From a bacterium (GTDB lineage Bacteria > JAJVIF01 > JAGGVT01): a stretch of 5,971 nt of DNA. The first letter of the stretch is position 1. The number at the start of each line of letters is the position of its first letter. The stretch lies in NCBI GenBank assembly GCA_021157815.1, contig JAGGVT010000065.1, positions 1 through 5,971 on the forward strand, in the 5' to 3' direction. This document shows positions 1,393 to 5,667 of the stretch, one piece after another. A program made the position numbers and the translations under genes. The notes beneath the pieces were generated by a model. That model was not told the DNA's origin. It was given only the letters and a program-made list of their open reading frames with translations, and did no database searches.

Positions 1393-1620
1393 TTAATCCT
1401 TATTTTGGTTATCTATGGCATCGCGAATTTCATCCAGAACAGGTTTTATCTCTTGTGCAAGAGCGGAATAACCGTGATCTGTTGCCATGTTGTATGCCTC
1501 CTCGGCAAGTTTCAGAGCCTCGTCGAGTTTACCCCATTCTCTGAGTATTTTCGCCTGGTTGTTAAGGCTTTTTGAAAGTTCAGATGAATTCTCTATTGTG
1601 CGAAAGTGTTTAACTAAGGG
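1393..1620 (-). pseudogene. 3' remnant of a TPR-repeat protein gene, 5' part replaced by a MITE-like repeat
   Basis: About 74 codons read LVKHFRTIENSSELSKSLNN... to the stop at 1393. They hold one full TPR motif (SLNNQAKILREWGKLDEAL, then KLAEEAYNMA) with the consensus small and hydrophobic positions 8, 11, 15, 20, 24 and 27 (Ala, Leu, Gly, Ala, Ala, Ala) in register. A further amphipathic helix (EIKPVLDEIRDAI) caps the repeat. The frame stays open into the repeat element up to a GTG at 1812, but those ~64 codons lie wholly within the dispersed element (copy A). No Shine-Dalgarno precedes that GTG and a TAA lies just before it, so it is not a credible start. I read this as the 3' end of a longer TPR gene that lost its beginning. 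TPRs of this spacing are common in STAND-type and regulatory proteins. It follows the HEAT gene on the same strand and may once have shared its operon. Confidence 0.7.
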
Positions 1621-1839
1621 TCTTAAATAAATCGTGTGGGTTGAGTTTAGATTGAGTAAAAAAAAAGGCCTATCCCAACCAAGTGAATAAACACAGTATA
1701 AATAAGGGGTTACAGCATAGTATATTGATAATATCAGATTTGAACCATCATGGGGACGTACCCCGTTATCGGGGAATGCCCCTTTTTTTACGGGGGTGCA
1801 AATAATCCACACAGTTTATTGAAGCGACCCTTTTTAAGT
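1618..1839 (+). mobile_element. MITE-like nested repeat, copy A (full length)
   Basis: This is the first of three same-orientation copies (others at 3315-3471 and 5251-5453). Outer terminal inverted repeats are 1622-1642 and 1804-1824, matching at 17 of 21 positions; the conserved core is CTT-AATAAA, two variable bases, then GTGTGG-TT. Inside lies a second inverted repeat: nine A then GGCCTATCCC (1658-1676) against GGGGAATGCCCC plus T-run (1771-1789). Between them is a conserved ~75-bp AT-rich core with GTGAATAAACACAGTATAAA and TTGATAATATCA. Compared with copy C, copy A has roughly 18 extra bases near 1754-1771 that add a CCCCG-TTAT-CGGGG hairpin. It encodes no transposase, so it would be non-autonomous. 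It ends about 9 bp before the stop of the HEAT gene and abuts the TPR remnant on its other side. Confidence 0.75.
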
Positions 1840-1847
1840 AGGCTAAG

Positions 1848-2867
1848 TCAGTTACTACCCGCGATATGCTCAACGTTCCTGAAAATATTCGCTGGGATTT
1901 CGAGTTTGTTCGGTGATAATCCGCAGTTGTCATGGATTACGCAGTCTATTTCACTGCACTTTTTCAAAAGAAGTTGATTTGAATTCAACGACAGTTTTTT
2001 GCAGAATGAATCGAAAATGGAATCTGAGACATTAACAATCTCAACTTTATCAAAATCGAAGAGTTCGTTGTGTTTAATGTAGTTAACCTCGAGTACTCCA
2101 TCATCCAGAAGCGCCGGCAAGTGCATATTCAAATCAAGGACAGCGACAACCTCACGGATATCTGTAAGCGCGTTTATCGACCTGCCGCAAATTCTGCAGC
2201 CGTAATAGGGGAGTTTTTTCAGCAATCCGATTTTAATATCCTGTCGAGTGTATTTTGCGAATCGTGTAAAGTGATTAAGGCATAGCAATTCGCCCGATTT
2301 TGGTCTGAATTCATTATAGGCATCAAAAAGAGCTCTTTTGATTGTTGTCAGGTGTATGTTGTTTTCAGATTTAATACGTTCCAGTAGAGGTTCCACAGCT
2401 CTGGGATCGCCTTTCAATACAATCCTGATAAGATCATCGATATCATTATTCAGGATAGCTCTTGCCAGCCTGCCATCACCGATATTTTTAAGGGCTGTAA
2501 ACGCGGCGTTGCGGATTTCAGGATAACCATCCTGCAATCGAGCCATCAACGGAGCGATTGAGATTGGGTCGCCAAGTTTGTCAAGCGCTTGACATGCGGC
2601 AACCCGTACATCCTTGTCAGGATCTCTCAGGCAGCCAACGAGAAATCTCAAAGCGCTGTCATCGCCAATATTGCCTAAAGTGGTGCAAACAGTGGCGCGA
2701 ATAGTGGAACTACGGGTTCCAATCATGCTTATCAGTGGCGCGACAGCTCTGGTTTCTCTTAAAGCGACAAGTTCCCTGCGTGCCTGATATCGTTCATTAA
2801 AATCTGATGATTCCAATCTTACGAACAAATCTCTGATTTGCTCAATCAAGGTGTCCTTCTTCTCCAA
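1848..2867 (-). CDS. HEAT-repeat protein with a C-terminal CxxH/CxxC domain, N-terminus probably frameshifted
   Basis: Numbered from an upstream in-frame TTG at 2891 (347 residues), residues 25-165 form a series of HEAT/PBS-lyase-type helical repeats (RAVAPLI, SALRFLVGCLRDPDKDVRVAACQAL, ISIAPLMARLQDGYPEIRNAAFTAL). These make a protein-binding solenoid. Residues 200-343 are a different domain: CLNH at 204-207, CRIC at 232-235 (a possible zinc site), then ELFDFDKVEIV near 276-286 and more Cys at 297, 312, 317 and 323. I do not know a name for this domain. The start given is the TTG at 2865-2867 because GGAG (2875-2878) lies 7 nt upstream; the TTG at 2891 is an alternative. A stronger Shine-Dalgarno and GTG start upstream in another frame (2888-2938) suggest the original gene began there with a membrane helix. 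The neighbour downstream is a TPR remnant. A scaffold or regulatory role is inferred, with no enzymatic motif seen. Confidence 0.82.
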   Translation of the reverse strand: MEKKDTLIEQIRDLFVRLESSDFNERYQARRELVALRETRAVAPLISMIGTRSSTIRATVCTTLGNIGDDSALRFLVGCLRDPDKDVRVAACQALDKLGDPISIAPLMARLQDGYPEIRNAAFTALKNIGDGRLARAILNNDIDDLIRIVLKGDPRAVEPLLERIKSENNIHLTTIKRALFDAYNEFRPKSGELLCLNHFTRFAKYTRQDIKIGLLKKLPYYGCRICGRSINALTDIREVVAVLDLNMHLPALLDDGVLEVNYIKHNELFDFDKVEIVNVSDSIFDSFCKKLSLNSNQLLLKKCSEIDCVIHDNCGLSPNKLEIPANIFRNVEHIAGSN

Positions 2868-2887
2868 TTCTTTTCTCCTCAGGTAGA

Positions 2888-2938
2888 TCAAGCAAACAGT
2901 AGAACTAATCCGGTGTTAATCAGTGCGGTTAAGTCCAC
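2888..2938 (-). pseudogene. Out-of-frame N-terminal segment of the HEAT gene, or a leader peptide
   Basis: A GTG at 2936-2938 opens a 16-residue peptide, MDLTALINTGLVLLFA, ending at TGA 2888-2890. GAGGAGG (2945-2951) sits 6 nt upstream, the best ribosome site in the window. The peptide is a hydrophobic half-helix. One added base, for example in the TTT at 2894-2896, would fuse it to LIYLRRKELEKK of the HEAT frame, giving a typical membrane anchor followed by positive charges. I therefore read it as the true start of the HEAT gene, separated by a one-base frameshift (mutation or sequencing error). The alternatives are a coupled leader peptide, since TTGA overlaps the TTG at 2891, or programmed slippage, although no canonical slippery heptamer is present. 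Confidence 0.6.
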
Positions 2939-2984
2939 CTTTGCCCTCCTCACAGGAATGGACATAAGGTTGTTACTGAGCTTG

Positions 2985-2996
2985 ATACAGCTGTAT
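2985..2996. promoter_or_regulatory. Perfect palindrome ATACAGCTGTAT, candidate operator
   Basis: A 12-bp perfect dyad lies between the candidate -10 box (3013-3018) and the GTG/Shine-Dalgarno at 2938-2951 of the HEAT gene, a position suited to a repressor site in the untranslated leader. It does not match the standard LexA pattern. Function is inferred only from symmetry and position. Confidence 0.35.
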
Positions 2997-3012
2997 AAAT
3001 TTACTTCCTGGT

Positions 3013-3018
3013 ATTATA
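3013..3018 (-). promoter_or_regulatory. Candidate -10 box of the HEAT gene
   Basis: A perfect TATAAT on the minus strand, preceded by TGC, lies about 75 nt upstream of the GTG at 2938. The -35 region at 17 nt spacing (TTTATC) is weak. The local AT-richness makes a chance match possible. Confidence 0.4.
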
Positions 3019-3130
3019 GCAAAATTTGGCTAAAAGATAAAACCCAAATCACTAATTTTAGGAAATTGTTTGAGGGTCAATCCATGGAAGATGTCTCAGA
3101 ACTCCATATTTTTTAAGATTCTGAATTTTC

Positions 3131-3241
3131 TGTCATTCTGAACTAATTGAAGAATCTATTCGCGATAACGTAAATATTCCTCACTTAGATATAATCACCA
3201 ACACAGTAGCATATAGATTTTTCGCTGCGCTCAGAATGACA
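3131..3241. repeat. Inverted repeat of the TGTCATTCTGA family (MITE-like)
   Basis: Two 29-bp arms, 3131-3159 and 3213-3241, pair as inverted repeats. Both ends are identical (TGTCATTCTGA outside, AATCTAT inside), while the 11 middle bases differ at about half the positions (23 of 29 match overall). The right arm reads TGTCATTCTGAGCGCAGCG on the minus strand. From memory, this motif is a very common dispersed repeat in uncultured bacterial genomes. No ORF lies between the arms. Confidence 0.7.
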
Positions 3242-3314
3242 ATCTATCCTGTTTAAATCAAGGTTTTAAGACAGTTTCCAAGCACCGCTCCTACGATGGT
3301 TTTATTATTTTATA

Positions 3315-3471
3315 AGGGTTTTCAATAAATCGTGCGGGTTGAATTTGGATTGAGTAAAAAAAGGGGAATGTCCCAACAAAGTGAATAAACACAGTATAAA
3401 TAAGGGATTACAGCATAGTATATTGATAACATCAGATTTGAAGCCTCATGTGGACTGTCCCCTTTTTACGG
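3315..3471 (+). mobile_element. MITE-like nested repeat, copy B (right end missing)
   Basis: It shares the left terminal repeat (3320-3340), the inner left arm (3356-3374, AAAAAAAGGGGAATGTCCC), the AT-rich core with TTGATAACATCA, and the inner right arm (3452-3467, GGACTGTCCCC plus T-run) with copies A and C. After the common TTTTTACGG the sequence diverges, so the outer right terminal repeat is absent. The break falls at the outer edge of the inner inverted repeat and joins a short coding fossil on the minus strand. Confidence 0.75.
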
Positions 3472-3564
3472 ATAGAACGAATCGATGTTAACTTTCGATT
3501 CATGTCTGGTAAATACCCATAAGCCGGCATATCCTTTATTAATCAGCATGTCGGTAATTGGGTT
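3466..3564 (-). pseudogene. Short coding fossil joined to MITE copy B
   Basis: Between an upstream TAG (3565-3567) and a TAA at 3466-3468 that belongs to the MITE arm, the minus strand reads NPITDMLINKGYAGLWVFT and then RHESKVNIDSFYP. The composition (GYAGLWVFTRHE) looks like real protein, loosely like the late strands of an acetyltransferase-type domain, but the piece is too short to name. No Shine-Dalgarno is seen before the ATG at 3549. It is best taken as a remnant of a gene cut at one end by the repeat and at the other by mutation. Confidence 0.4.
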
Positions 3565-3622
3565 CTAACTTAACAGGACACTTGTGAGCCCATTTATAAA
3601 GGGATTCAACCATTCAAACAAT

Positions 3623-3641
3623 AAAGGTGACGGACACCTTT
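3623..3641. repeat. Small palindrome AAAGGTG-ACGGA-CACCTTT
   Basis: A perfect 7-bp stem with a 5-nt loop, followed by one more T. It has the same design (A-run, G-rich stem, GAC-type loop) as the short palindromes at 391-410 and 5521-5543 and probably belongs to the same broad repeat class. Confidence 0.5.
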
Positions 3642-3685
3642 TACATCCCCGGCCACACCTGCCATTCCGACCACTACCCACCTAC

Positions 3686-3722
3686 AAAAAAAGGGACTGT
3701 TCGCAGTGGAACTGTCCCTTTT
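3686..3722 (-). terminator. Rho-independent terminator of the LamG-like gene, built from a repeat arm
   Basis: Arms 3689-3702 and 3709-3722 pair with a single mismatch around a 6-nt loop; on the minus strand the stem is GGGACAGTTC / GAACAGTCCC followed by seven T. It lies about 30 nt beyond the stop of the 3754-5109 gene, exactly where a terminator is expected. The left arm (A7 then GGGACTGTTC) closely matches the inner arm of MITE copy C (5291-5309), so this looks like a collapsed copy of the repeat acting as a terminator. Confidence 0.75.
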
Positions 3723-3753
3723 ACTAACTATAAACCTTATCGTTAGCGCTTTC

Positions 3754-5109
3754 TTATTTCAGTTTGGTTATCACCACATTATCAATGTAGCGTTCACTGC
3801 CTCTACTGCCGACTCCCCATATTCTAACCTTTGTCTTGTCAAATGAGCCGGCAGACACCCATGACGTGGTGATAGTCTTGCCTTCATCATTGGTGAATGA
3901 CATCTGAACTTTTTTCTTCGCGTATGTGAAAGTAATTCTACCTTCGGAAACACCTTTATGGTCAAGCTCACGAAGGTAGTTCGGATCTCTAATGCAATCC
4001 CAGTTTTTTGCTGTATTTAAAGTTGGGGGAGTTCCGACATTGATGCTTTCCTTTGCGTCCAAACCATACCTGAAGCGCATAATTCCCGCCGGAGCTCTAA
4101 CACTTACGAGCTCGACATAGTAATCCGCGCACTGATGGCTTCCGGCTTTTCTGATAACATCAAAAGAGATTTCAAGGTCGCCATCAAAAGAATATTTTGT
4201 CTCGATATAGTCATAGAGTTGTGAAAAACTAACCTGGCCGTCAACAATAGATACAGTCGGCCCGCCGGAATTCTGGTGTGAGTTGGTTCCGGTTGTCCAG
4301 TTATCACTTAGCGAACCGCTGAAATTATTCTTTAATACTATTACATCCCCATCGCTGGGTGTATCGTTATTAGTTCCAGGTTCAGGTTCAACTGCAATTG
4401 CAACATCAGTTGTTATAACAAAATTATCGACATAGCGCTGGCTGTTTTTTCCGCCGACTCCCCATATTCTAACCTTTGTCTCATTAAATTCGGAGACAGG
4501 CACCCATGATGTGGTGACAGTGTTTCCCTCATCATTGGTGAATGACATTTGAATTTTGCTGTCCTTATATTCGAATTTAATTTTCCCCTCCGAAACTCCA
4601 TTATGGTCAAGCTCACGAAGGTGGTTCGGGTCTCTAATGCAATCCCAGTTTTTTGCTGTATTTAAAGTTGGGGGAGTGCCGATATTGATGCTTTCTTTTG
4701 CGTCCAAACCATACCTGAAGCGCATAATTCCCGCCGGAGCTCCAACACTTACGAGCTCGATATAATAATCCGCACACTGATGGCTTCCGGCTTTTCTGCT
4801 AACATCAAACGTAATTACAAAGTCATTGGAAAAAGAATCTCTGGTTTCAATATAGTCATATTGTTGTGAAAAACTAACCTGGCCGTCAACAATTGCTACA
4901 GACGGCCCACCGGAATTCTGGTTTGAGTTGGTTCCGGTTGTCCAGTTTGCACTTAGCGAACCGCTGAAATCATCGCTTAAAAGCACTGTCACGCTTTCTG
5001 CTTGAGCACCGCTTTTGGCATGGGTGAAGCCGGTTAAAAGAATAAATGAAACCGCTATCAATCCAATAATGCTGAATAATGACAGTCCGTTGAAATTATG
5101 GTTTTTCAT
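3754..5109 (-). CDS. Secreted protein with two tandem LamG-like units
   Basis: A 451-residue exported protein. ATG 5107-5109 is chosen over the ATG at 5127 because AAGGAG (5115-5120) lies 5 nt upstream. A signal peptide is clear: a hydrophobic core (residues 14-28) with likely cleavage after THA31 or AQA37. Two homologous units follow, about 45-233 and 260-448, offset by exactly 215 residues without gaps and identical at about 147 of 189 positions by hand count. A linker rich in Pro, Asp and Asn (EPEPGTNNDTPSDGD) joins them. Each unit begins with D/N-FSGSLS.NWTTG, contains VDGQVSFS, IETxxSF and HQCADYY, then NWDCIRDP, and ends RIWGVG..xxRY.DN. This pattern suits a concanavalin-A/LamG-like beta sandwich. 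The two Cys per unit (112/157 and 327/372) may form a disulfide. There is no anchor or sorting tail and no catalytic signature, so a glycan- or surface-binding role is inferred. Confidence 0.88.
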   Translation of the reverse strand: MKNHNFNGLSLFSIIGLIAVSFILLTGFTHAKSGAQAESVTVLLSDDFSGSLSANWTTGTNSNQNSGGPSVAIVDGQVSFSQQYDYIETRDSFSNDFVITFDVSRKAGSHQCADYYIELVSVGAPAGIMRFRYGLDAKESINIGTPPTLNTAKNWDCIRDPNHLRELDHNGVSEGKIKFEYKDSKIQMSFTNDEGNTVTTSWVPVSEFNETKVRIWGVGGKNSQRYVDNFVITTDVAIAVEPEPGTNNDTPSDGDVIVLKNNFSGSLSDNWTTGTNSHQNSGGPTVSIVDGQVSFSQLYDYIETKYSFDGDLEISFDVIRKAGSHQCADYYVELVSVRAPAGIMRFRYGLDAKESINVGTPPTLNTAKNWDCIRDPNYLRELDHKGVSEGRITFTYAKKKVQMSFTNDEGKTITTSWVSAGSFDKTKVRIWGVGSRGSERYIDNVVITKLK

Positions 5110-5156
5110 TACGTCTCCTTGCTGCATAACAATTAGGTGAAATTTTTTTCCTGTCC

Positions 5157-5175
5157 AATATCACTATCTGATATT
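5157..5175. promoter_or_regulatory. Dyad AATATCA-N5-TGATATT upstream of the LamG-like gene
   Basis: A perfect 7-bp inverted repeat with a 5-nt spacer lies about 48 nt before the start codon at 5109, in the AT-rich region where the promoter should be. It could be a repressor or activator operator. TTGATAATATCA inside the MITE cores has similar half-sites. No confident -35/-10 pair could be fixed nearby. Confidence 0.35.
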
Positions 5176-5250
5176 AGAATACGGAAATTTTACTTGCTAA
5201 TATTTCATATGGAAATCTGGATTCGGTGTCTCCAAATGAATAAATATTTT

Positions 5251-5453
5251 GGGTCTTCAATAAATCGTGTGGGTTGAGATTAGATTGAGTAAAAAAAGGG
5301 GACTGTTCCAACCAAGTGAATAAGCACAGTATAAATGAGGGGTTGCAGAATAGTATATTGATAATATCAAACTTGAAACTCATGTGGACGGTCTCCTTTT
5401 TTTACGGCGCAGCAAATAACCCACAAAGTTTATTGAAGCGCCAAATTTTTAAG
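5251..5453 (+). mobile_element. MITE-like nested repeat, copy C (full length)
   Basis: The outer terminal inverted repeats are 5255-5275 and 5418-5438 (18 of 21 positions match; CTTCAATAAA, three variable bases, TGTGGGTT). The inner inverted repeats are 5291-5309 (A7 then GGGGACTGTTCC) and 5386-5403 (GGACGGTCTCC then T7). The core contains a perfect TTGATA-A-TATCAA dyad. It shares its right-hand segment after TTTACGG (CAAATAA-CCACA, TTTATTGAAGCG) with copy A but not copy B. No coding capacity for a transposase is present. Confidence 0.75.
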
Positions 5454-5667
5454 AGGGAATACTATGCGATTTTTATTCTTCTGTCAAGAGAGGAAAATGT
5501 CACTGTTTAATAAACATTAGATAAAGGGGACAGCGCCCTTTATTGTAGTTGATTATATCATTTATGCGCAATGTGCTCCATGATAATTCGCAAAATCATA
5601 TTATGATGTTCAAGGTATCCTTGTTAATCGACCTGTTCATTTTATCATGGATGCTGATTATTGCCAC
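5454..5667. other. AT-rich intergenic stretch without a recognised gene
   Basis: Only short frames are present, for example an 18-codon ATG frame at 5464-5520, and these have no protein-like features. The palindrome at 5521-5543 is the only clear structure. Confidence 0.55.
5521..5543. repeat. Short palindromic repeat, second copy of the GGGGACAGCGCC type
   Basis: ATAAAGGG (5521-5528) pairs perfectly with CCCTTTAT (5536-5543) around a 7-nt loop. The first 17 bases are identical to 391-407, about 5.1 kb away, in the same orientation. Confidence 0.65.

Follow-up and report, generated by a model that had tools for sequence, protein, structure and literature searches.

What kind of DNA occurs three times within 4 kb of a bacterial contig as one pair of inverted repeats enclosed by another? 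The window analyzed here, a stretch of 5,971 nucleotides (contig JAGGVT010000065.1), carries three such copies, A, B and C, which an earlier note made from its letters alone had described as MITE-like, being either an element that had inserted into another or a single unit with two recognition sites. The host genome, a fragmented assembly of 3.2 Mb in 221 contigs that is 91% complete, was searched for their parts.

Three elements in the window

The three copies are real: all lie in the same orientation, close to where they had been placed, with limits that now run from 1618 to 1828 for copy A, from 3316 for the type-1 part of copy B and from 5251 to 5442 for copy C, all on the plus strand. Copies A and C, in both of which the outer inverted repeat is found, are complete members of what we call type 1, a non-coding MITE of 189–213 bp with outer inverted repeats GGCTCTTCAATAAATCGTGTGGGTT...AACCCACACARTTTATTGAAGCGCC and ends of 25 nt. 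Copy A (211 bp) has a long right inner arm and flanks in which a target duplication is unrecognizable, and copy C (192 bp) has a short right inner arm and flanks (AATATTTT / AAATTTTT) that match at 6/8 positions. Inside the type-1 ends sits an inner unit with inverted arms of its own, which bears out the nested structure that had been proposed. On the plus strand, it occupies positions 3359–3466 in copy B (108 bp, both arms intact) and 5294–5400 in copy C (107 bp), where the inverted pairs measure 16 nt (88% complementary) and 18 nt (89%), respectively. In copy A it lies at approximately 1661–1786, and the pair is weaker (21 nt, 76%), the left arm being decayed and the long right arm, GGACGTACCCCGTTATCGGGGAATGCCCCTTTT, being of the longer variant GGACGTACCCCGTTATCGGGGAATGCCCC.

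Copy B had been thought to lack merely what lies outside the inner pair on the right. This is not the case. Its left part (3316–3358, plus strand) is a type-1 left end with the linker GGGTTTTCAATAAATCGTGCGGGTTGAATTTGGATTGAGTAAA, and beyond the inner unit the sequence continues at 3467–3586 (plus strand), for 120 ungapped bases, as the right half of type 2, a second MITE family, through its terminal repeat AACTTAACAGGACACTTGTG; this match scores 84, and the best of 500 shuffles 26.5. Copy B is a chimera of a type-1 left half and a type-2 right half. A candidate remnant of a type-2 left end upstream of copy B was weak, 9 of 500 shuffles being equally good.

A longer tandem or genic duplication is ruled out, as similarity ends at the element ends and the flanks are unrelated. 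The inverted repeats also exceed chance: at three or fewer mismatches the genome has 124 matches to the 21-nt outer end and 97 to the 20-nt inner arm, vs 0 to the reversed control of each. The same-strand clustering had been called odd, and proves unremarkable: with ~62 copies simulated in 3.2 Mb, three fall within 3.9 kb somewhere with a chance of 0.14, and the chance that three copies share a strand is 1/4.

Several other features were observed in the window. A minus-strand TPR-like fragment at 1393–1620 has a frame that runs into copy A, and is possibly a gene truncated by it. Within the reading frame at 3754–5127, which has no Pfam match, 300 nt are duplicated (83%) at a spacing of 645. 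Further palindromic sequences are a 22-nt inverted repeat (91%) at 579–640, GGAACGCGGACAGCCTTGTCCG, whose arms are 18 nt apart; an inverted pair TGTCATTCTGAAC...CAGAATGACA at 3131–3241, a similar TGTCATTCTGAAC stretch being found inside a type-2 derivative at L228; and a compact palindrome resembling the inner arms, AAAAAAAGGGACTGTTCGCAGTGGAACTGTCCCTTTT, at 3686–3722. Rfam and tRNA scans of the window gave no matches.

Outer elements and inner units across the genome

Type 1 has at least about 60 copies in the genome, and at least 51 complete ones were collected from the fetched loci; these counts are lower bounds, taken from outer ends among the 100 matches listed. Complete copies measure 189–193 bp with a short right inner arm and 209–213 bp with a long one, and one derivative of 105 bp has lost the core between the inner arms. 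A perfect 8-bp direct repeat stands outside the ends of 24 of the 51 copies, and one with at least seven of eight bases in 33, vs 0.3% and 1% of randomly paired flanks. When duplication lengths from 3 to 12 were compared only 8 stood out, and the duplications are 90% A+T. Because they lie directly outside the ends, the whole type-1 unit, inner part included, transposed as a single piece, and the MITE-like character first noticed in the window is confirmed by end-to-end copies and target duplications together. The element was not found in 39 other genomes, the nearest of which are class-level relatives only, and its exact end pattern occurs in none of the viral contigs searched.

The type-2 family has ends CACTACTGTCCGGTTAA and its complement, a paired-end span of 264–310 bp and 9-bp duplications, which are perfect in 12 of 26 rows vs none in mismatched pairs; as both strands are counted, these rows stand for about half that number of elements. 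Since some type-2 copies hold a further insert with CCCTAAATCCGCGAT ends, nesting goes one step deeper. A type-3 family, with ends near TGAGACCGTTGCAAAA, is less well defined; at least five of its copies share a right flank.

The inner unit measures 107–126 bp and consists of inverted arms, AAAAGGGGACTGTCC...GGACTGTCCCCTTTT, around ~75 bases; short-arm units are mostly 106–108 bp, which amounts to an inverted pair of conserved arms at fixed spacing, as in REPINs. About 90 units are scattered through the genome, in types 1, 2 and 3 and also, in about six cases (solo units), without recognized outer ends, some of them in unique flanks. The edges of most solo units are GCAA/TTGC, as in type 3, and several of these units show no trace of outer ends. 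The units at L158, L159 and L175 lie in palindromic flanks (10–12 of 12 nt), L159 counting as type 3 under a loose pattern. An IS630-like insertion with TA duplication is rejected for the inner unit, the edges being GC/GC in most type-3 and solo units. Within each outer type the inner unit occupies one fixed site.

The genome search thus found inner units apart from the type-1 element, as the earlier note had anticipated. The outer units lacking the inner part that it had also envisaged were absent among paired ends (type 1 at 105 or 189–213 bp, type 2 at 264–310 bp), for which reason the insertion of the inner unit into outer elements is something that we infer. Its suggestion that the inner unit may move independently holds in part: separate mobility is likely, given the several contexts.

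Chimeras and the exchange of inner units

Chimeras occur beyond the window. L179 is built like copy B; in L085 the left half of type 1 is followed by an inverted left half of type 2; and in all three chimeras the junction lies at the edge of the inner unit. A tree computed from 93 inner units over 97 columns leaves many forks unresolved. Labels of outer type cluster in it yet are mixed: ‘type 1’ has to change 10 times, with at least seven of these changes forced by well-supported branches, and a single lineage (support 100/99) comprises seven type-3, six solo and six type-1 units and one chimera. Independent insertion and gene conversion both fit this mixing. The tree splits the units into two core lineages, between which identity is 94% and 97% in the two arms and 58% in the core. 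The retention of the arms while the cores diverged suggests that the arms matter in their own right. The type-1 copies L045 and L180, which carry the second core lineage, have intact 8-bp duplications.

Search for transposases

That no transposase was visible in the window agrees with the genome as a whole, in which none with type-1 outer ends was found. PF01610 and PF12762 are absent from this incomplete assembly, and none of its four PF01609 matches has type-1 or type-2 ends of its own. Two of these matches were considered as outer partners and rejected: L241, a complete gene of 337 aa, has ends GGTACCGTTGCAAAA with only a partial resemblance to type 3, and L242, a fragment, merely adjoins a type-1 copy. 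The type-1 ends (GGC...GCC) and 8-bp A/T-rich duplications resemble those of MITEs of the ISL3 or IS1595 families; unlike those, the element has no such transposase found in its genome, which leaves both as rejected partners, and the ISL3 loci searched in other genomes showed no type-1-like ends. Multi-copy autonomous insertion sequences are often missing from fragmented, incomplete assemblies.

Nine Y1_Tnp genes were found in the genome, none of them flanked by exactly the inner-unit arms in the way that a RAYT is flanked by its REP. The nearest flank, AATAGGGACAGTCCCC at L036, differs from the inner arm itself; inverted repeats of inner-arm style are carried by some RAYT loci (AATAGGGACAGTCCCC at L036, AAAGGGGACGGACAC and AAAGGGGACGGACACTTTTT at L031, CCCGGGGACGCTTCCCCGGG at L038). 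Separately, inverted pairs AATAGGGACAGTTACC...GGTAACTGTCCCTATT, 79–80 bases apart, occur in about seven places (L276–L298) and probably make up one of the genome's REPIN families, close to the repeats on either side of the L036 RAYT. In the window, a REP-like AAAGGGGACAGCGCC followed by MSRIFRDCDYNVPHHIT* at 394–503 is a RAYT pseudogene remnant that matches the repeat and N-terminus (MPRIPRIVITDVPHHITQRGN) of the L035 RAYT, and the REP-like repeat has a second copy at 5520–5541.

Discussion

The recurrence of one inner unit in several outer elements hints at mobile DNA of two levels. We give about an even chance to the reading that a REPIN- or TIR-dimer-like unit is nested in several MITEs of the DDE kind, whose halves have been swapped by recombination. 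At the outer level, judging by ends and duplications, the type-1 elements are non-autonomous MITEs of the DDE-transposase kind that moved whole, leaving 8-bp A/T-rich duplications, as type 2 did with 9-bp ones. The inner level is, in its anatomy, a dimer of ~108 bp of inverted REP-like arms; dimers of this sort are believed to owe their movement to RAYT/TIRYT tyrosine transposases, and the inner unit is probably a unit of a RAYT-type (Y1) transposase. At least three different MITE families would have received it, and their transposases would then have amplified it. Because ~90 inner units are dispersed over the genome, recombination or gene conversion inside these units would exchange cores and outer halves, giving rise to chimeras such as copy B.

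Known systems offer partial parallels. Like REPINs, the REP dimers that go with RAYT (PMC3116915), the inner unit has inverted, conserved arms of ~16 nt, a less conserved spacer of fixed length, a high copy number and the capacity to form hairpins, and its genome has Y1_Tnp/RAYT genes; unlike them, it has no RAYT with exactly these arms, and most units lie inside other transposons. The inner arms AAAAGGGGACTGTCC / AAAAGGGGACAGTCC lack both of the tags, GTAG and CGTC, that mark the classical REP superfamilies. RAYT-like TIRYT genes are flanked by terminal repeats that share GGGGWSAS and form dimers (‘TIRtrons’, PMC3733652). The inner units form dimers too, and their right arm fits this motif (49/53), whereas the left arm, GGGGACTG, does so in 1/53 and no cognate gene was identified. 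REP dimers are regularly inserted in longer palindromes, as GTAG-15 of A. variabilis and CGTC-1 of H. neapolitanus are (PMC3733652). These share with our unit the nesting of a dimer in a longer sequence with no empty hosts found; here, however, there are three host elements, two of them with target duplications, and for that reason the composite itself can be said to transpose. In addition, 18 stretches from other phyla contain dimers with the inner-arm motif, many with the full AAAGGGGACAGTCCCCTTT, and other cores; the dimers with GGGGACAGTCC arms in other phyla have unrelated cores. By these resemblances, a REPIN/TIR-dimer origin is our best guess. Because no gene flanked by exactly these arms was found and the GTAG and CGTC tags are absent, we do not claim membership in the REPIN family, and at most suggest that the inner unit works like a REPIN.

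How far the inner unit has moved by itself is a separate matter. It would be tempting to regard it as a hitch-hiker that still moves, entering palindromes as well as MITE families unrelated to one another, being spread by several transposases and having its outer ends shuffled by recombination, which we consider possible yet rather unlikely. About equally doubtful is the opposite view, in which each outer family received the unit a single time in the distant past and all later mixing was homologous recombination or gene conversion. This would account for chimeras that join exactly at the inner unit, for the single fixed site per outer type and for L045 and L180, whose intact duplications alongside a second core are what conversion and outer transposition predict; the continued conservation of the arms while cores drift and the solo units in unique flanks speak against it.

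The nesting itself could also be only apparent, although we think this improbable. If the inner arms were subterminal sites, for binding or structure, in a single ancestral MITE, with types 2 and 3 derived by end replacement and solo units being copies with decayed ends, one would expect a fixed position in each outer type, no empty elements among paired ends and GCAA/TTGC edges common to most solo units and type 3, all of which were found. It is harder to reconcile with arms that, unlike the cores, stay conserved in lineages whose outer ends differ, with the several solo units that bear no trace of such ends, or with the palindromic flanks at L158, L159 and L175. Least probable of all, to the point of being very unlikely, is conservation for a transcript function, for example as a bidirectional terminator (A-run, GC stem, T-run). 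The consensus fold does pair both arms, through 19 pairs of which the two outermost change on both sides, and AAAAAAAGGGGACTGTCCCCTTTTTTT, which remains in the 105-bp derivative, is a terminator-like hairpin; but arms held ~75 nt apart in nearly all copies would make a poor terminator, and the changes in the outermost pairs may only mirror the TA/GC edge differences between contexts.

In summary, one REPIN-like cassette rides in at least two, and probably three, MITE families of a single genome, a situation documented here with target duplications. Whole element halves appear to have been exchanged at this inner cassette, such that ends and cassettes are mixed and matched. If the inner units still move, repeats of tyrosine transposases could spread by borrowing DDE transposases.
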